From a virus, in IMG/VR virus record IMGVR_UViG_3300010354_000301, positions 1-33,877 of that record: a DNA stretch of 33,877 bases; one strand, written 5' to 3'. Of this stretch, positions 81-26,410 are shown piece by piece. Position numbers and translations under genes: made by a program. Each line of letters opens with the position of its first letter. The first letter of the stretch is position 1. Under the pieces are notes generated by a model. The model ran no database searches. It saw only the letters and a list, made by a program, of their open reading frames with translations, and had not been told where the DNA came from.

Positions 81-420
81 CACAATCCAAATCGAGCAGT
101 GGCCCTTGGATCGGCTATTGCCCTATGCGGCCAACGCCCGAACGCATCCGGATGAGCAGGTTGCCCAGATCGCTGGATCGATCGCGGAATTCGGCTTCAA
201 CGTTCCGTGCCTCGTCGACGAGCGCGGGGTGCTGGTTGCCGGTCATGGCCGCCTGCTCGCCGCCCAGCGTCTCGGACTTTCACAGGTTCCGGTCATTCGG
301 CTCGACCATCTGAGCGACGCGCAGGCGCGCGCCGCGGAGGCGTTGGCGTCCATCTCGCGCCTCGCCGCTGACTCGGCCGGCGTCTCCCGCCGTGTCGACG
401 ACGACGAGCGGGTGTGGTAG
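70..420 (+). CDS. ParB/Srx-type N-terminal domain protein, lone domain
   Basis: A 116-aa protein from the ATG at 70. An in-frame ATG at 19 is also possible, but 70 gives a short overlap with the upstream stop. Residues 7-90 match the ParB-like nuclease fold seen next to phage methyltransferases: LLPYAANARTHPDEQ, then a SIAEFGFNVP segment and the VAGHGRLLAAQRLG box (GHGR motif), then VPVI. Family members usually continue into an ADN-containing linker and often a methyltransferase domain. Here the sequence diverges after AQARA and stops about 25 residues later, overlapping the portal start. It may be a DNA-binding or CTP/nucleotide-binding remnant, or a small adaptor of the packaging cassette; its exact role is unknown. 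Confidence 0.75.
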   Translation: MQRDTIQIEQWPLDRLLPYAANARTHPDEQVAQIAGSIAEFGFNVPCLVDERGVLVAGHGRLLAAQRLGLSQVPVIRLDHLSDAQARAAEALASISRLAADSAGVSRRVDDDERVW

Positions 421-1940
421 TGGCGCGCCCCGACTACAAGGCGGTCTATCCCGAGCTGATCCTCCCGGTCTTCACGCAGTGGGCGAAGGTCGGGAGCATC
501 ACCCAGATCTTGGCCGACCTCGAGCAGGGCAATTTCCACAACGCCGCCCTGCTCGCTGACCAGATGATGCGCGACGACCGGATCAACGCAGTCCTGTCGG
601 TGCGGGTCAACGCGGTGCTGTCGCAGCCGTGGGCCTTCGCCCCGGGCAAGGACACTGCCACCGGCCGCCGCGCCTGCGAAGAGGCCGAGGCGTCGTGGTG
701 GGAGATGGTGCCCCGCGCCGAGCTCGCGCTGTTGCTGCGCTGGGGCCTGCTGCTCGGCGTCGGCCTTGCGCGCCTGTCGTGGCGCCGCGATGCGGGCGAG
801 TGGGTGCCGTCGCTCAAGGTCTATCACCCGGGCGCGCTTTGGTACAACCTCGCCAAAGATCAGTACCACCTCAACTACCAGGGCGGCGTCGAGCCGATCG
901 ACCCCGACGACCCCAACTGGATCGTCTTTACCCCCTACGGCTACAAATACGGCCGCACCAACGGCCTGCTGCGCGCCCTCGCCATGCCCTATCTGGCGCG
1001 GCAGTGGGCGTTCCGCGACCGCGCCCGCCACTCGGAGCGCCACGGCCAGCCCTTTCTGCAGGGCGTGGCCCCAGCGCAGGCCGACGACGACGAGAAGAAG
1101 TCATTCAAGCGCGCATTGGCCGCGCTCGGCTCGGAGACGGTGGTGGTCACGCCGCAGGGCGAGCCCGGCAACCAGTGGGACATCGAGCTGATCGAGGCCA
1201 AGTCAAACAGCCACGAGGTCTTTTCCGCGCAGATTGACCACCTCGACAAGGCCATCGCCATCCTGGTGCTCGGACAATCGATGTCCACCGAGGGCGTCTC
1301 GGGCCTCGGCAGCCAAGAGAAGGCCGGCGACCTGGTGCGCCGCGACCTGATGCGCTCGGACGCCGCGCACCTCTCCGACATTGCCCGGGCGGTGCTCTCG
1401 CCGTGGGCGCTCTACACCTACGGCTCGCGAGACCTGGCGCCAACGGTCTCGGTCACGGTCGACCCGCCGATCAATGCGCTGCAGCGAGCGCAGGCGCTGG
1501 CCCAGCTCGCCAGCTCCATGGCCGCGCTTGAGGGTCTGGGTGTCGATCCGGTGGCCCTGCTCGCCGAGCAGGATGTGCCCATGGTCGACGCGGACAAGCT
1601 GGCGGCGCTCTCCGAGCTCCGCTGGCGCGACGTGTTGCGCGCCCACGAGCAGAGCGAAACGCCGAGCGAAGAGGCCGCCGAGTCGCCGACCGTGCAGCAG
1701 GTCGAGGCCGAGGCCGGCGTCGAGGCGGCACCCGAGGCCGAAGGCACAGGCGAGCCCGACGAGGCCCCCGAAGAAGAGAAGGCCGAGGAGGAGCCGGTGC
1801 AGAAGAAGCTCGACGCTGCGGCGCTCTCTCTAGTTGCCGCGTCGCTCAAGACCTTGCGCGAGGCAGGCGCGGTGGTCGACCTCGAGCAGCTGCGCGCCCT
1901 GTTCCCCACCCTGCCTGTCGCTTCGATCTACGAGGACTGA
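414..1940 (+). CDS. Portal protein, DUF935 / Mu gp29-like
   Basis: A 508-aa protein that would form the dodecameric portal through which DNA is packaged and to which the tail attaches. The N-terminal half has DUF935 features: an early DD-RI-AVLSVRVNAVLS segment and a central KYGRTNGLLRALAMPYLARQ region. The diagnostic helical stretch LGQSMSTEGVSGLGSQEKAG lies at about residues 285-305. After the core comes an acidic, low-complexity tail (about residues 410-460, rich in E, A and P) and a leucine-rich end. The start is GTG at 414 or GTG at 420; both overlap the ParB stop. The position before the protease and capsid genes fits the Mu order. Confidence 0.9.
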   Translation: MVVARPDYKAVYPELILPVFTQWAKVGSITQILADLEQGNFHNAALLADQMMRDDRINAVLSVRVNAVLSQPWAFAPGKDTATGRRACEEAEASWWEMVPRAELALLLRWGLLLGVGLARLSWRRDAGEWVPSLKVYHPGALWYNLAKDQYHLNYQGGVEPIDPDDPNWIVFTPYGYKYGRTNGLLRALAMPYLARQWAFRDRARHSERHGQPFLQGVAPAQADDDEKKSFKRALAALGSETVVVTPQGEPGNQWDIELIEAKSNSHEVFSAQIDHLDKAIAILVLGQSMSTEGVSGLGSQEKAGDLVRRDLMRSDAAHLSDIARAVLSPWALYTYGSRDLAPTVSVTVDPPINALQRAQALAQLASSMAALEGLGVDPVALLAEQDVPMVDADKLAALSELRWRDVLRAHEQSETPSEEAAESPTVQQVEAEAGVEAAPEAEGTGEPDEAPEEEKAEEEPVQKKLDAAALSLVAASLKTLREAGAVVDLEQLRALFPTLPVASIYED

Positions 1941-3331: not shown

Positions 3332-4594
3332 GTGGCGCTCTACTATCGCGCACCAAACAGTCTCGGCGGCAACCTCGACAACGTGTCGAAGGTGCTGCTC
3401 GACCTTGACGGGTTTGCGCCAGTAGTTGACAGCGAGCTCCTCGCTCCGGCTTCGATCAGCATCCTACCGGCAGGCATTGACTCCGCGTTTGCCGCGGGGG
3501 CGTTTAGCGTAACGCTAGGCGTTGCCCCGGTGGGCATTGCATCTGCGGAGGCGCTGGGCACGCCCAGTGTCGGCACCGGGGTCAGCATCCTACCGGCGGG
3601 CATCGCTTCGGCCTTCGCCGCAGGAACCTTCCGCACCACGCTTGGCGTGGCTCCGGGCGGCATCGCCAGCGCCTTTGCCGCGGGGACGCTGCGCACGGCT
3701 CTGGGCGTGGTTCCCAGCGGCATCGCCTCGGCTTTTGCCGCGGGCGCGGCCCGTCTCGCCTTTGCGGTGGTGCCGTCGGGCATCTCAAGCGCCTTTGCCG
3801 CGGGGACGCTCAGCGTCGGTCTCGGCGTGGCTCCGAGCGGGGTGGCCTCGGGCTTCGCTGCGGGTACCGCGCGCCTGGCGTTGGGCGTTGCCCCGGCCGG
3901 CGTTGCCTCCTCGTTTGTTTCGGGGACCGCCGCCGTCAGCCTTGCCGTTTCGCCCAGCGGCATCGCCTCGGCGGCGGCTCTCGGTTCACCCACAGTCACC
4001 AAGGCGGCGCAGACCATCGCGCCCGCTGGGATCGCCTCGGCCGCTGGCCTGGGGATGCCCACCGTGCAGGGTGGCGTCACCACCGCGCCAGTGCTCACCG
4101 GTGGCGGAGGTTGGGTCGACGCCAAGCCCAAGAAGCGCCCCAAGCCAGCGCCGCGCCAGTTGGCGGCCTTTGGCATCGCCTCGGAGGAGCGCGTCGGATA
4201 CCCGGCCGTCGAGGTCGAGGCGCTTCCTGCGGTGGCGCAGCAGCTCGAGATTGGCGGTATTGCCTCGGGCGAGGAGCTGGCTGCGCCTGCGCTGCCGCGC
4301 GACCTGGTCGCCGCCAGCATCGCCTCTGTGGAAGATCTGAGCGCGCGGGTGCTGGTGCTGCGCCAGGACACGCACAGCGCCGAGCTCGAGCGCCTGCGGC
4401 GGGAGCTCGACGCCGCCTCGACGCGCCTCTCGGTCGAGTGGTACGAGCGCGCGCAGCAGCTGCTCGCCTCTCCTGCCGGTCTCTCCGCAGTGGCCGAGCT
4501 GCTCTCACGCCAGAGCGCGCCAGAGGCGCAGCGGCAAGTGGTCGCGCGGGTGGGCCGGGTGACCCGGGTGCGCCGCGCTCCGCGTGCGGCCTGA
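3332..4594 (+). CDS. Tandem-repeat virion protein with GIAS repeats
   Basis: A 420-aa protein from the GTG at 3332. About 13 copies of a motif GIASAFAAGT followed by a variable LGVAPxx stretch occupy residues 45-345. Most units are 20 residues, two are 22, and the last three are degenerate. The final ~75 residues form a charged coiled coil (ELERLRRELDAASTRLSVEW) ending in an Arg-rich tail. The alternating short hydrophobic strand and GxxS turn suggest a solenoid or elongated fibrous domain. Similar GIASAEAFG-type repeats occur in other phage proteins from memory. Its position in the head cluster suggests a capsid-surface or fibre-like accessory. The Arg-rich tail overlaps the next gene's start by 11 bp. 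Confidence 0.75.
   Translation: MALYYRAPNSLGGNLDNVSKVLLDLDGFAPVVDSELLAPASISILPAGIDSAFAAGAFSVTLGVAPVGIASAEALGTPSVGTGVSILPAGIASAFAAGTFRTTLGVAPGGIASAFAAGTLRTALGVVPSGIASAFAAGAARLAFAVVPSGISSAFAAGTLSVGLGVAPSGVASGFAAGTARLALGVAPAGVASSFVSGTAAVSLAVSPSGIASAAALGSPTVTKAAQTIAPAGIASAAGLGMPTVQGGVTTAPVLTGGGGWVDAKPKKRPKPAPRQLAAFGIASEERVGYPAVEVEALPAVAQQLEIGGIASGEELAAPALPRDLVAASIASVEDLSARVLVLRQDTHSAELERLRRELDAASTRLSVEWYERAQQLLASPAGLSAVAELLSRQSAPEAQRQVVARVGRVTRVRRAPRAA
3473..4087 (+). repeat. Tandem 60-bp coding repeats (GIAS units)
   Basis: Successive units begin with GGCATCGC-like sequence at about 3598, 3658, 3718, 3778, 3838, 3898 and 3958. This is an exact 60-bp period, with 66-bp units on either side. Units have diverged in sequence but keep their length, so unit number could change by recombination without breaking the frame. 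Confidence 0.85.
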
Positions 4595-5687
4595 CCCTGC
4601 GGTGACTCTTTCCGCGCGCGCGTGCGGTAATGGTCGCGTGCAAGTCGTCAAAGCAGCTTTTGGGACGTTTGAGCAGGTCGGCAGCGCCGCTGCAGTGCCG
4701 TCGGAGTTCTGCCTGCTGCGCGCAGGCTGGAATGACTACGTGGGCGACCGGCTGCTGTTTGACGAGCAGGCCGCCGCCTCAGTGATGGAGCGCTACGCCG
4801 CGCGCGGGCTGCAGCTCACCGCCGACTATGAGCACCAGTCGCTAGCGCAGCCACCGGTCATTGCCCCTGCCTCGGCAAAAAAGTGGATTCCTGAGATGCG
4901 CAACGGCGAGCTCTGGGCCACTCAGATCGCCTGGACCGAGCGGGCGCGCGCCATGATCGCCGCTGGCGAGTATCGGTATTTCAGCATCGCCTGCAAGGTC
5001 GACCCCGAGTCGGCGCGGGTGATGGAGCTGATCAATTTTGCGCTGACCAACCTACCAGCGGCCGACGGGATCGCGCCACTGATGGCAGCGCGTGCAACCC
5101 CCGGCGCAGCGCCGGGCAACCAGGAGAGCGGTATGAGCAAGACCGTGATCGTGGCGCTCGGACTGAGCGCCGAAACCGTCGAGACCGACGCCGCACTCGA
5201 GGCGGCCCGGCTCGTCGAGTTCCGTCGGGACGTGCTGGCCCTGACGGCTAAGAGCAGCGCCGGCGAGGCGCTGGGCGTGCTGCGCGCGATGCAGCAGAGC
5301 CATGAGCGCGAGCAGGTGGCGCTGAAGCGCCTCGGCGAGCTCGAGGCCGAGCGCCGCACCGAGCGTTTCGATGCGCTGGTCGCCGATGGGCTCTCTGACG
5401 GCAAGCTGTCGCCGGCAATGTCCAAGAGCGAGTGGGTGGCGCAGATGCGTGCCCGCGAGGACGGCGTCGAGACGCTGCGCGCCTTCCTCGCCTCGGCGCC
5501 CAAGCTGGTGCAGACCGAGGCAGAGCAGCCCAAGGTGGCCGCTGAGCCGGCTCCTGCCGCCGGAGACGAGCTCACCGCCGATGAAATCGCCGTCGCCAAG
5601 ACCATGGCCGGCCCAGACCGCGAGGCGTTCAAGCGCCGCCTCGAGGCTCTCCGTGCACAGAAGCGCGCTGACAAGGACATGGCCTAA
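4584..5687 (+). CDS. Prohead protease with C-terminal scaffold, Mu gpI-like
   Basis: A 367-aa protein. The N-terminal ~160 residues resemble Mu I-type prohead proteases: LLFDEQAAASVMERYAARG, then LTADYEHQSL with the DYEHQ box, KKWIPEMRNGELWA, the EYRYFSIACKV segment with its serine, and FALTNLPAADGI. The remainder is a charged helical scaffold with an A/E/P-rich linker near residues 305-330. The enzyme would assemble inside the procapsid and cleave scaffold during maturation. The start is uncertain: GTG at 4584 overlaps the upstream gene by 11 bp, while GTG at 4638 gives a protein beginning MQVVKAAFG, which fits the usual family start better. Confidence 0.85.
   Translation: MRPDPAVTLSARACGNGRVQVVKAAFGTFEQVGSAAAVPSEFCLLRAGWNDYVGDRLLFDEQAAASVMERYAARGLQLTADYEHQSLAQPPVIAPASAKKWIPEMRNGELWATQIAWTERARAMIAAGEYRYFSIACKVDPESARVMELINFALTNLPAADGIAPLMAARATPGAAPGNQESGMSKTVIVALGLSAETVETDAALEAARLVEFRRDVLALTAKSSAGEALGVLRAMQQSHEREQVALKRLGELEAERRTERFDALVADGLSDGKLSPAMSKSEWVAQMRAREDGVETLRAFLASAPKLVQTEAEQPKVAAEPAPAAGDELTADEIAVAKTMAGPDREAFKRRLEALRAQKRADKDMA
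5133..5687 (+). CDS. Nested in-frame scaffold protein (internal start in the protease gene)
   Basis: Inside the protease gene an in-frame ATG at 5133 is preceded by AGGAGA at 5122-5127, a strong ribosome site at good spacing. It would make a 184-aa protein starting MSKTVIVALGL that contains only the coiled-coil scaffold part. Nested scaffolds of this kind are established in phages (lambda C/Nu3, Mu I/Z). Translation from the site is inferred, not shown. Confidence 0.65.
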   Translation: MSKTVIVALGLSAETVETDAALEAARLVEFRRDVLALTAKSSAGEALGVLRAMQQSHEREQVALKRLGELEAERRTERFDALVADGLSDGKLSPAMSKSEWVAQMRAREDGVETLRAFLASAPKLVQTEAEQPKVAAEPAPAAGDELTADEIAVAKTMAGPDREAFKRRLEALRAQKRADKDMA

Positions 5688-23190: not shown

Positions 23191-24801
23191 TCAGCGGTGC
23201 TTTGCCGTCGCTGCCACGGTCAGCGGGATGGCGCAGTTGCTCGCCTGTTCGTCGGAGTAACCAACAGTGGTACGAGGTGCAACGGCGGCCGCTAGCAGCA
23301 GCGAGCCGCGGAGGGTGCCGTCGGCCTCGAGGATGGCGCCCCGCTCACCGCCTGCTGTCAACAGAGCTGCGACGATGGCGCGCCGCTCGGCCTGCGTAGC
23401 GCGCTTCATGCGGTGACGCAGGGCGGCCAGGAGGTCGCGCGCCACGCGGGTCTGCTCCTGGTCGCGGTCGGCGGCCTCGACCTGCGCGCGGGCGGCGGCC
23501 ACCTGTCGCTCAAGCAATGTTCGGCGCTTCTTGGTGGTCGCCAAGAGCTCGCGGTAGGCGCTCTCCGCGACGACTCCGCTGACGTAGTCGGCCATGATCT
23601 GAGCGTCTCGCTTGTCGAAGCGCTCGATCTGGCGCTGAGCGGCGACCAGGTCGCGGCGGTAGGCGGCGACTGACTGCTGGCGCTCGCCGCGGGCTTCGAT
23701 GCTGCGCTCAAGGAGGTCAGGGCGAGAGGCCAAGCGCTCAATCTCGGCCCATGCCGCCGCGTCCAGCTCCTCTGCGCGAAACATGGGCAGGGAGCAGGGC
23801 TGACCGAGGTGAGGGTCGGAGTGAGCTCGGCGGCGGCTGCTGCAGTAGTACCAGACCTTCTTCTCCTCGCCTACTGACGGGCGGCCGGTGTAGTGGAGCC
23901 CGACCCCAGCCCCGCAGACGCCGCAGGTCATCAGCCCTTGCAGCAGGCGCTCCTCGCCGTGGCGCTGGCGGCCGCGGCCGGTGCCGCGCAGGCGCAGTGC
24001 CTGGTCGGTGCGACGCCACTCCTCCTCGCTGATAAAGGTCGGCACCGTCACGGTCAGCTTGCGGCGCTTGTCGGCCACCCACTGGCCGTCGACGAGATGG
24101 CGCTGCTTGGCGATGCTCCAGACGCGGGCGCGGGTCCAGGCGCCGGAGCGCGGGCGGCCCACGCCGCGCGCCTGCAGGTCGGCGGCGATTCCCTGGCAAG
24201 TGTCGTCCCCGGCGAGCCGGGCGAAGATCTCGCGGACGATGGCGGACTGCTCGGGGTCGATGCTCCACGTCTTCGTGGCGCGGTCGTAGTGGTAGCCGTA
24301 GGGGGTCGGGCCGGCGGGCTTGCCACCGCGCCTGATGGTTTCCTCCTTGCCGCGGACGATGCGCTCGCGATGCTTCCGCAGCCAGCCCGCCGACTGCATG
24401 TTGCCGACGCCGAGCAGCAAGTCGCCGGTGTCGGTGCCCCACTCGATCAGCGACCCGGTCGAGGCCACTGCGATCTTGACGCCGTGACGCTGGAGCGGCC
24501 CATAGACGGCGCCGCGCTCGTCCAGGTACTCAGAGCGGGTGAAGCGGTCCACATCGACCACGGCGACCACGTCGAGCTCGCCCCGGGCGGCCGCGGCGTG
24601 GAGCTGGCGCAGGCCGTCGCGAGCGGCCAAGAGTTCGGCGCCGTCCTTGGCGCTCTTGCCGTCGTCAATGAAGGTCGCCACCACGTCCCAGCCCTGCCGC
24701 TTGCAGTAGTCGGGCAGCGTCGAGAGCTGAGAGGCGATGGTTTGGGCGTCCTTCTGCTTTGCCGAGGACACGCGGGCGTAGATGGCTGCTCGGGTGCGCA
24801 T
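23191..24801 (-). CDS. Large serine recombinase (phage integrase)
   Basis: A 536-aa site-specific recombinase. The N-terminal catalytic domain begins AIYARVSSAKQKD with nucleophile Ser12 and Arg10, and has DVDRFTRSEYLD at about residues 83-94. The recombinase domain follows (GKPAGPTPYGYHYD, about 160-173). A zinc ribbon uses Cys293, Cys296, Cys320 and Cys336, and a long coiled coil spans about 370-470. This order and length are typical of large serine integrases that insert phage DNA without host factors. It is the last gene of the leftward operon and converges on the endolysin gene with a 26-bp gap. Confidence 0.93.
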   Translation of the reverse strand: MRTRAAIYARVSSAKQKDAQTIASQLSTLPDYCKRQGWDVVATFIDDGKSAKDGAELLAARDGLRQLHAAAARGELDVVAVVDVDRFTRSEYLDERGAVYGPLQRHGVKIAVASTGSLIEWGTDTGDLLLGVGNMQSAGWLRKHRERIVRGKEETIRRGGKPAGPTPYGYHYDRATKTWSIDPEQSAIVREIFARLAGDDTCQGIAADLQARGVGRPRSGAWTRARVWSIAKQRHLVDGQWVADKRRKLTVTVPTFISEEEWRRTDQALRLRGTGRGRQRHGEERLLQGLMTCGVCGAGVGLHYTGRPSVGEEKKVWYYCSSRRRAHSDPHLGQPCSLPMFRAEELDAAAWAEIERLASRPDLLERSIEARGERQQSVAAYRRDLVAAQRQIERFDKRDAQIMADYVSGVVAESAYRELLATTKKRRTLLERQVAAARAQVEAADRDQEQTRVARDLLAALRHRMKRATQAERRAIVAALLTAGGERGAILEADGTLRGSLLLAAAVAPRTTVGYSDEQASNCAIPLTVAATAKHR

Positions 24802-24805
24802 GGGT

Positions 24806-24949
24806 CTAAGTTTGGCGCGGCTCGGCGTCGTCGAGTAGTCGGGCGAGGATGCGGATCAGCTTTTCCACGGCGACCGGGTCATCCGTCTCTGCCGGCGTCA
24901 GCTCGACGCGGACCTGTCGTGGCTCTCGTCGCTTACGCTTCACGGTCAC
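24806..24949 (-). CDS. Small basic-acidic protein upstream of the integrase (47 aa)
   Basis: The GTG at 24949 overlaps the upstream TGA (GTGA), and the stop lies 4 bp before the integrase ATG. The protein starts VTVKRKRREPRQVRVELTP, a strongly basic stretch, and ends with an amphipathic helix (VEKLIRILARLLDD). Its tight link to the serine integrase makes an accessory such as a directionality factor conceivable, but there is no motif evidence. Confidence 0.55.
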   Translation of the reverse strand: MTVKRKRREPRQVRVELTPAETDDPVAVEKLIRILARLLDDAEPRQT

Positions 24950-25503
24950 ACCTCCAGCCAGTCGAGACGGCCGGCGCCGTCGAAAATGAACCAGGCGTAT
25001 TCGCTGGCGTCGCTCTTGCCGTCGCTGGTGAACGATGGGCGCCGCGGCGAGACCAGCACTGACGGACGCAGCTCGCGCCACATGGACAGGCGCGAACGCC
25101 CGGCAAGCATTCCGAGGCGCAGCAGCATCGCCACCACGCCGTAGGGATACAGGCGCTCGAGCGCGCGCCAAACAAACCGCTCAGCCTGCTTGTAGGGCGG
25201 GTTGGTGATGATCAGGTGGTACTGCTGAGACCACCCGGGGTCGGTGATCCAGCAGCGGGCCTCGGCGCGGCCGACCATCGCGCCCCGCGGCTCGAGGTCG
25301 ACGGCGTCGACGGTGGCCCGCTCGCCCCAGGCGCTCTCGAGCACGCGCACGATAGCCCCATCCCCGCAGGCCGGCTCGAGCACGCGCAGTCGACCTGGCG
25401 GCAGGCGCTGCTCGAGGTGCGGCAGCACCGCCTCGACCAGCCAGGCCGGCGTGCGGTAGTAGTCGCGCGGAGCTCGCACCGCGCTGCGGCCGGTGGCGCT
25501 CAT
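24946..25503 (-). CDS. Adenine-specific-type DNA methyltransferase (class I)
   Basis: A 185-aa SAM-dependent methyltransferase. Motif I is VLEPACGDGAIVRVLES (about residues 41-57) and the catalytic motif IV is NPPY (101-104), the form used by N6-adenine enzymes. The C-terminal RPSFTSDGKSDASEYAWFIF is typical of small phage Dam-like enzymes. The start at 25503 is favoured because GGAGG lies 8 bp upstream and its ATG overlaps the upstream TGA in ATGA form; an in-frame ATG at 25518 is the alternative. No target-recognition domain or restriction partner is visible. Confidence 0.8.
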   Translation of the reverse strand: MSATGRSAVRAPRDYYRTPAWLVEAVLPHLEQRLPPGRLRVLEPACGDGAIVRVLESAWGERATVDAVDLEPRGAMVGRAEARCWITDPGWSQQYHLIITNPPYKQAERFVWRALERLYPYGVVAMLLRLGMLAGRSRLSMWRELRPSVLVSPRRPSFTSDGKSDASEYAWFIFDGAGRLDWLEV

Positions 25504-26144
25504 GCTAACGTCCTCCATGCGAGGCGCACCACTGCTGGAACCTGTCCATTGCCAATGGCCCTAAGTCGGTCCACCCGAGAGGCCACCCCATGAGCCATTC
25601 GACCCACATCGGGTTCAGCGGGCCACCAACCTCGGCATTCAGCGGTGTGGGGCACATTTTCGCCGGTGGGGTCCACAGCGGGCTTTTTCCTTGAATTGCC
25701 GTCGAAAGACACATGGGAAATCGGTTTTTTAACATCGATCGATGAAGCTCTTTGTCCGCGCTCGCTTGGCGAAGGCTTGACGTTTGCGCCATTTGCACCG
25801 TCGGTGTAGGCCACAGGTTGAACCGCGCCATCGCGCCTAGTGTCGGGCGCAGACTCGCTCCCGGCGATGAACTTAGATTGAAACGACTCCCCGAGTCGAT
25901 CGTGCATGGCGTCGGGTAGGTGGGCGAGGATCCAGATCCGATCGCGCTTGTGCGGAGCGCCGACTTCGTGCGCTCCCAGCACGCCCCATCGCGCGTCATA
26001 CCCCAGCGAGGCAAGATCACCGATGACTCGGGCAAGTCCTCGTCGAACAAGAGCCGGTGAGTTTTCCACGAGGACGTAGCGCGGTCGAACCTCACTGACG
26101 ATGCGCGCCATGTGCCGCCACATGCCGCTGCGCGATCCGTCGAT
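25500..26144 (-). CDS. C5 cytosine methyltransferase, C-terminal part in the second frame (motifs VI-X)
   Basis: Immediately after the G9 tract this frame reads IDGSRSGMWRHMARIVSEVR, then motif VI VLVENSPALV, motif VIII GAPHKRDRIWILAH and motif X DRLRAIGNGQVPAVV. This is what a normal C5 enzyme needs after motif IV. Its TGA overlaps the next gene's ATG as ATGA, the operon's standard junction. Adding one G to the tract joins both parts into a 302-aa enzyme from 26407 to 25500 (909 nt). As read, expression needs a -1 ribosomal shift, transcriptional slippage or a tract-length change. Confidence 0.75.
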   Translation of the reverse strand: MDGSRSGMWRHMARIVSEVRPRYVLVENSPALVRRGLARVIGDLASLGYDARWGVLGAHEVGAPHKRDRIWILAHLPDAMHDRLGESFQSKFIAGSESAPDTRRDGAVQPVAYTDGANGANVKPSPSERGQRASSIDVKKPISHVSFDGNSRKKPAVDPTGENVPHTAECRGWWPAEPDVGRMAHGVASRVDRLRAIGNGQVPAVVRLAWRTLA

Positions 26145-26407
26145 CCCCCCCCCTTGCCTGCGACGGAAATGTCCTGGCAAGGGAAGCCGCCCGAAACCAC
26201 GTCAACAACTCCTCGCCAGGAATATCCGTCGAAGGTCTGAACGTCATCCCAGACCGGGAAAGGCGGGAGAGCTCCGTCATTTTGTCGGGCGAGCAATACG
26301 CCTGCGGCGTAGGCGTCCCACTCGACGGCGCAGACTGTCCTCCAGCCGAGGAGGTGGCCTCCGAGTATGCCTCCACCAGCGCCCGCGAAAAGAGCCAGCT
26401 CACGCAT
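25505..26407 (-). CDS. C5 cytosine methyltransferase, zero-frame product (motifs I-IV)
   Basis: From the ATG at 26407 (GTG at 26410 also possible) this frame encodes motif I (LFAGAGGGILGGHLLGW) and motif IV GGFPCQDISVAGKG with catalytic Cys78. It then runs into a G9 tract (C9 at 26145-26153 on the + strand). After the tract the canonical motifs VI, VIII and X are in another frame. The zero frame nevertheless stays open for ~210 more residues, with SSWKTHRLLFDEDLPESSV and NPMWVEWLMGWPLGWTDL, which I recall from other phage methyltransferase-like proteins (unverified). Without motifs VI-X this product should not be an active C5 enzyme. Confidence 0.75.
   Translation of the reverse strand: MRELALFAGAGGGILGGHLLGWRTVCAVEWDAYAAGVLLARQNDGALPPFPVWDDVQTFDGYSWRGVVDVVSGGFPCQDISVAGKGGGSTDRAAACGGTWRASSVRFDRATSSWKTHRLLFDEDLPESSVILPRWGMTRDGACWERTKSALRTSAIGSGSSPTYPTPCTIDSGSRFNLSSSPGASLRPTLGAMARFNLWPTPTVQMAQTSSLRQASADKELHRSMLKNRFPMCLSTAIQGKSPLWTPPAKMCPTPLNAEVGGPLNPMWVEWLMGWPLGWTDLGPLAMDRFQQWCASHGGR
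26145..26153 (-). repeat. G9 homopolymer at the methyltransferase frame junction
   Basis: Nine C on the + strand give AAG GGG GGG GGA on the coding strand, directly after the SVAGK codons. Tracts of this length are prone to slipped-strand change and to sequencing error. The tract marks the exact point where motif content switches frame. Confidence 0.85.
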
Positions 26408-26410
26408 CAC

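Follow-up and report, generated by a model that had tools for sequence, protein, structure and literature searches.

A gene for a C5 methyltransferase lies on the minus strand of a viral contig (IMG/VR record IMGVR_UViG_3300010354_000301; the whole stretch analysed, 33,877 nt, is referred to here as the window), and its conserved motifs are distributed over two reading frames that meet at a run of nine Gs. The question raised by this locus is whether the run marks an error in the contig, a decaying gene, a site of slippage or one state of a phase-variable gene, and what is encoded by the frame that continues through the break.

The methyltransferase locus in the window

Upstream of the tract, motifs I and IV (LFAGAGGG and GGFPCQDIS) are encoded in the minus-strand frame that starts at GTG 26410 or ATG 26407. 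Motifs VI, VIII and X (ENSPAL, HKRDRIW and IGNGQVP) lie downstream of it, in another frame that is open from 26201 to 25500 (-). All five motifs, including the PCQ of motif IV, are thus present and in order across the two frames, and PF00145 matches the two methyltransferase pieces separately and collinearly (profile positions 2–85 and 82–166); in the window the enzyme does not run in one continuous reading frame. The switch between frames coincides with the G9 tract at 26153..26145 (-), C9 on the plus strand; no other run of G or C in the whole window reaches 7. One additional base at this point generates 303 codons from ATG 26407 and a TGA stop (25502..25500) that overlaps the ATG of the next gene as ATGA. 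A preliminary description of the sequence had proposed both the split at G9 and its repair by one added G; the former is borne out by the frames and the PF00145 pieces, and the latter is confirmed.

That description treated the locus as a single split gene. The split stands, but the second frame also appears to be coding, and two full-length proteins would be broken by the same missing base. The frame that carries motifs I and IV continues past the tract to give 301 codons from GTG 26410 to TAG at 25507..25505, and its part downstream of the tract (SSWKTHRLLFDEDLPESSVILPRWGMTRDG...WPTPT...LNPMWVEWLMGWPLGWTDL) matches nine phage records (tblastn, best E 1e-26) and 555 stretches in viral contigs (tblastn). 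Relatives of the C-terminal part of the methyltransferase are found at several of the contigs that match it. Upstream of the tract, the +1 frame (GTG 26403, 103 codons) is also conserved. The putative product of these two further pieces is referred to as protein A. Apart from G9, the window pieces of both proteins are intact, with no other lesion. The features are as follows (L numbers are our labels for related records).

26154..26410 (-): methyltransferase N-part from GTG 26410 or ATG 26407, with motifs I and IV (PCQ); PF00145 positions 2–85; 84–89% identity to the methyltransferases of L009, L089, L091 and L106
26154..26403 (-): protein A N-part, +1 frame, from GTG 26403 (VSWLFSRALVEAYSE...); 53–68% identity to A of L106, L089, L009 and L091
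26145..26153 (-): G9 tract and frame switch; the same site is G8–G17 in about 150 viral contigs among the matches listed
25500..26144 (-): methyltransferase C-part with motifs VI, VIII and X and the ATGA overlap with the next gene; PF00145 positions 82–166; 50–55% identity to the nearest relatives
25505..26144 (-): protein A C-part (SSWKT...WPTPT...WVEWLMGWPLGWTDL...), here in frame with the methyltransferase N-part; found by tblastn; phrog_1008 at E 7e-14; 45–49% identity to A of the nearest relatives
25505..26410 (-): open chimeric frame, methyltransferase N-part plus A C-part, 301 codons from GTG 26410 (300 from ATG 26407)
26092..26403 (-): A N-part frame as read in the phase of the window, 103 codons and then a stop

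The gene directly downstream (24946-25518 (-)) encodes an NPPY motif (ITNPPYKQAERF) typical of adenine methyltransferases, and no Pfam match was found for it at E 0.001. By its virion genes (Portal_Mu and Mu-like prophage I protein) the window is a Mu-like tailed phage, and a large serine recombinase (Resolvase, Recombinase and zinc ribbon) adjoins the methyltransferase genes; the regions concerned are 23191-24801 (-), 414-1940 (+) and 4584-5687 (+).

Relatives for the scoring of frames, approximately 160, were chosen by similarity. All three pieces of the locus were present in 164 of 167 records tested (two of the 167 are short pieces of the window itself), and the methyltransferase is read in one frame, with A in +1, in 159 of the 162 records scored for frame.

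Length and phase of the G tract

Most relatives have only 2–4 Gs at the junction; among loci selected by similarity, 6 of 215 motif matches have at least 8. A pattern scan for the motif followed by eight Gs identified at least 120 viral contigs, and a second pattern identified 25. Among the long-tract records listed, the N-parts of the methyltransferase and of A are in the expected frames in 146 of 152 (window included), tract length ranges from G8 to G17, and the downstream phase is whole in 99, +1 in 24 and +2 in 22. Other G or C runs of at least 8 number only 20 in the 1.34 Mb of these contigs, which had been chosen for the junction tract. A tract of the tested form was not found in 399 Pseudomonas genomes, nor was one of at least 8 in the motif-bearing Acinetobacter genomes.

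When records were clustered at 95% identity or more over both flanks, tract length differed within 6 of 24 multi-member clusters (95–100% flank identity), the lengths coming from metagenome assemblies, in which G runs are error-prone. The window itself has no near-identical sister in this cluster set. Unequal tracts between flanks that are 100% identical are G15/G13 (L064/L068), G8/G9 (L177/L385), G14/G15 (L278/L372) and G8/G10 (L390/L391). The whole phase is seen in 78 of 109 classifiable clusters, which departs from random phase (p 5e-16); the out-of-phase fraction is about 28%. A recurrent, polymorphic, mostly in-phase tract is what a contingency locus predicts. The comparison of tract length in relatives that had been suggested at the outset thus yields G8–G17 at a single site, with differences between near-identical contigs, and variation of phase by tract length is the best supported of the three explanations offered then (the others being a -1 ribosomal slip and a sequencing or assembly error). 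It had also been anticipated that relatives with unbroken, non-homopolymer codons at this site would speak against it; most relatives do have such codons, but phase variation stands, since many others carry variable tracts.

A sequencing or assembly error in this contig is a serious possibility, though not one that we consider probable. The true tract would then be one base longer, and the phage of the window would make both whole proteins. Long runs of G are known to be prone to errors in sequencing and assembly, neither protein carries any other damage here, and the predominance of the whole phase among tract-bearing clusters is in keeping with such an error. Against this, similar length differences recur between contigs from different samples that are otherwise 95–100% identical, and the tract recurs at one site only. 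If G9 in the window is an assembly error, only the OFF state is false; the dual coding described below stands.

A one-off frameshift in a decaying gene is unlikely. A single base is missing, and some relatives have lost the methyltransferase or A, but neither protein has a second lesion in the window and the lesion sits exactly at the recurrently variable tract.

Slightly less likely again is that ribosomal (-1) or transcriptional slippage on the run yields a whole methyltransferase, and perhaps A, from G9. Long G runs are known to allow slippage in principle, and G GGG GGG is present in the window; however, 159 of the 162 records scored need no shift, and most of them lack the run. A -1 ribosomal slip on G GGG GGG was suggested in the preliminary description; as a conserved mechanism it is rejected: most relatives lack the slippery run that a conserved programmed site would require, and read the methyltransferase in one frame. 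Slippage as leakage in OFF phases is possible.

Evidence for a second protein in the +1 frame

In the relatives inspected, with GC contents as low as 43%, the +1 frame typically opens no more than a few nucleotides from the start of the methyltransferase and stays open almost to its end, some 240–340 codons. Under permutation of synonymous codons, with protein and codon content fixed, 35 stops were observed in the +1 frame of 127 genes compared with 584 expected, an approximately 17-fold depletion. There was no deficit in the +2 frame (1917 observed, 1614 expected) or, by the same permutation, in the antisense frames. A non-redundant gene set gave 17 stops in +1 compared with 612 expected; this set had been picked for an A frame of at least 200 codons and its result is supportive only.

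Substitutions were classified by their effect on the methyltransferase (first letter) and on A (second letter), N denoting a changed and S an unchanged residue. In 42 independent pairs, the values were.074 for NN,.188 for NS,.213 for SN and.717 for SS, giving SN/SS of 0.30 (bootstrap 0.26–0.34) and NN/NS of 0.40. As a control, 28 pairs of neighbouring ORFs treated alike gave.087,.114,.408 and.569, respectively, with ratios of 0.72 and 0.76. All three thirds of the gene show the suppression, and in the last of them A is more constrained than the methyltransferase (SN.163 vs NS.312). These patterns clearly point to purifying selection on both frames and, as sequence evidence, mark A as a protein-coding gene; a single stretch of approximately 0.9 kb is accordingly predicted to encode a C5 methyltransferase together with a second conserved protein, A, whose +1 frame covers virtually the entire stretch and is presumably translated.

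That the +1 frame is a mere shadow of methyltransferase conservation in GC-rich DNA, encoding no protein, is very improbable and was rejected by the codon permutation, the substitution classes and the neighbouring-gene control: high-GC genes often have long spurious frames, and similarity in A does run parallel to that in the methyltransferase, but the A frame is open in relatives at 43–51% GC too, stops are depleted at fixed protein and codon content, changes that are synonymous for the methyltransferase and alter A are suppressed relative to neighbouring genes, and the constraint on A is the stronger in the last third. No close relative was seen in which A had many stops and synonymous change was unrestrained.

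The starts of the two frames are also closely linked. A double start, NTGAATGAG (NTG-A-ATG), is present in 91 of 128 genes; its NTG starts the methyltransferase, and its ATG, 4 nt further on and immediately after a +1 stop (TGA), starts A (MSWLFS...). In 99 of the 128, A has an ATG or GTG located 4 nt downstream of the methyltransferase start. Three loci picked up by a pattern scan, but not by the search for the double start, were left out of the analysis. The window and its nearest relatives have CGTGAG, and the A start is GTG. Shine–Dalgarno-like cores, present in 144 of 197 genes, are mostly 4–5 nt before the methyltransferase start and hence 8–9 nt before that of A, so that a single ribosome-binding site could serve both.

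Both frames are found in hundreds of relatives of the phage of the window. Isolate prophages of Acinetobacter, Pseudomonas, Halomonas, Pantoea and others contain both in intact form, as do 9 of 176 Acinetobacter genomes, Acinetobacter phage ABMM1, Salmonella phage S9-5, Vibrio phage 1.291.O and an E. coli prophage. The A frame starts later in Mycobacterium phage Royals2015 gp75 and Microbacterium phage R1. In L399, L400, L007 and L008 (Royals2015 gp75 and phages of Microbacterium, Stenotrophomonas and Microcystis) the A frame has a later start, or covers only the middle and C-terminal portions of the gene; the N-terminal third of A may therefore be a later extension. The methyltransferase is short and A long in L208, L233 and L248, and the reverse is seen in L049, L095, L144 and L250; each of the two proteins can be lost alone. 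Annotation picks one frame in the records viewed, the methyltransferase in L003, L004 and L402 and A in L005 and L397; L402, a prophage of E. coli PT62, has both frames. In E. coli PCP07014 (L403, 1001-1762), RefSeq classes the prophage methyltransferase as a pseudogene containing an internal stop, and the +1 frame is broken at that position too.

Protein A is mostly 230–360 aa long and matches PHROG 1008 (phrog_1008). It has no PF00145 match, whereas the methyltransferase frame matches PF00145 and phrog_363. The PHROGs label for phrog_1008 is 'DNA methyltransferase', yet this family matches the +1-frame protein and not the enzyme. The PADLOC orphan-methyltransferase profile PDLC03718 matches the N-part of the enzyme at 6-158 and, weakly, the C-part of A at 296-351 (E 0.0018), and may therefore contain in-frame fusions of methyltransferase and A. 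A known domain, fold or solved relative was sought for A and rejected: no Pfam family scored above the cut-off, a PDB sequence search gave nothing below E 0.26, AlphaFold models were not confident (pLDDT 55 and 61, pTM 0.28–0.29), and Foldseek with these models gave nothing below E 9.

Probable phase variation of a dual-coded gene and its relation to known systems

The locus is probably a phase-variable, dual-coded phage gene, caught in the window in one OFF phase. The methyltransferase and A would each be translated from a separate start codon, the two lying 4 nt from each other in most relatives, and the poly-G tract just after the PCQ motif, at a position which we take to code for the active-site loop of the enzyme, would change length by slippage. 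In the first phase, both proteins would be whole. In the second, the state of the window, the methyltransferase N-part would be joined to the A C-part and the A N-part would end early; in the third, the A N-part would be joined to the methyltransferase C-part. Slippage would thus switch both proteins together, and the base missing at G9 would entail the joint loss of both, with production of the methyltransferase-N/A-C chimera. We infer that switching is reversible during phage growth and that G9 in the window is a true OFF phase. If real, such joint switching would suggest that A acts with the methyltransferase, perhaps, as a conjecture, as a partner or regulator. A fuller three-state switch, in which both chimeras (methyltransferase-N/A-C and A-N/methyltransferase-C) have functions of their own and one gene gives three proteomes in a phage population, is doubtful.

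Frame 0 is like that of other phage C5 methyltransferases (PF00145, phrog_363), with motifs I, IV, VI, VIII and X in order. It differs from them in that almost the entire gene codes in two frames and that, in the window, a G tract splits the enzyme. Phase-variable methyltransferases with poly-G tracts have been described in bacteria, namely a type IIG enzyme in Campylobacter (PMC4889913) and a type III enzyme in Helicobacter (PMC12003011). As at the present locus, the tract lies inside the methyltransferase reading frame; its length sets ON and OFF phases, as we propose here from assemblies. In these bacterial enzymes each phase yields one product only, whereas here a phage C5 enzyme is involved, with two coding frames and with chimeras predicted out of phase.

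The Rz1 protein of phage lambda is short and is nested inside Rz. The lambda pair Rz/Rz1 (PMC6139136) resembles the present one in that one same-strand stretch of a tailed phage encodes two proteins in different frames. In contrast, both proteins are some 230–360 aa here, with starts within 4 nt, ends close together and no lysis function. The ShiLan element contains an out-of-frame HNH endonuclease in a phage methylase (PMC11855218), so that there, too, a phage methylase gene conceals a further reading frame; that frame, however, lies within an inserted homing element, whereas the present methyltransferase gene contains no insertion and codes in two frames throughout. None of these systems has both a C5 methyltransferase gene that is dual-coding almost throughout and, inside the overlap, a tract of variable length. 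Among the open-access papers covered we found no earlier description of a dual-coded phage cytosine methyltransferase or of a phase-variable phage methyltransferase, an absence that is not proof of novelty.

Conservation of this almost fully overlapping same-strand pair extends across many tailed phages and prophages of Proteobacteria, and traces of it are seen in actinobacterial phages; the pair provides a large natural data set on how one stretch of DNA evolves while coding for two proteins. With A, a previously hidden family of phage proteins linked to DNA methylation comes into view. A further suggestion is that phages place their own methyltransferases under poly-G contingency loci, in which case protection from host restriction would be switchable.
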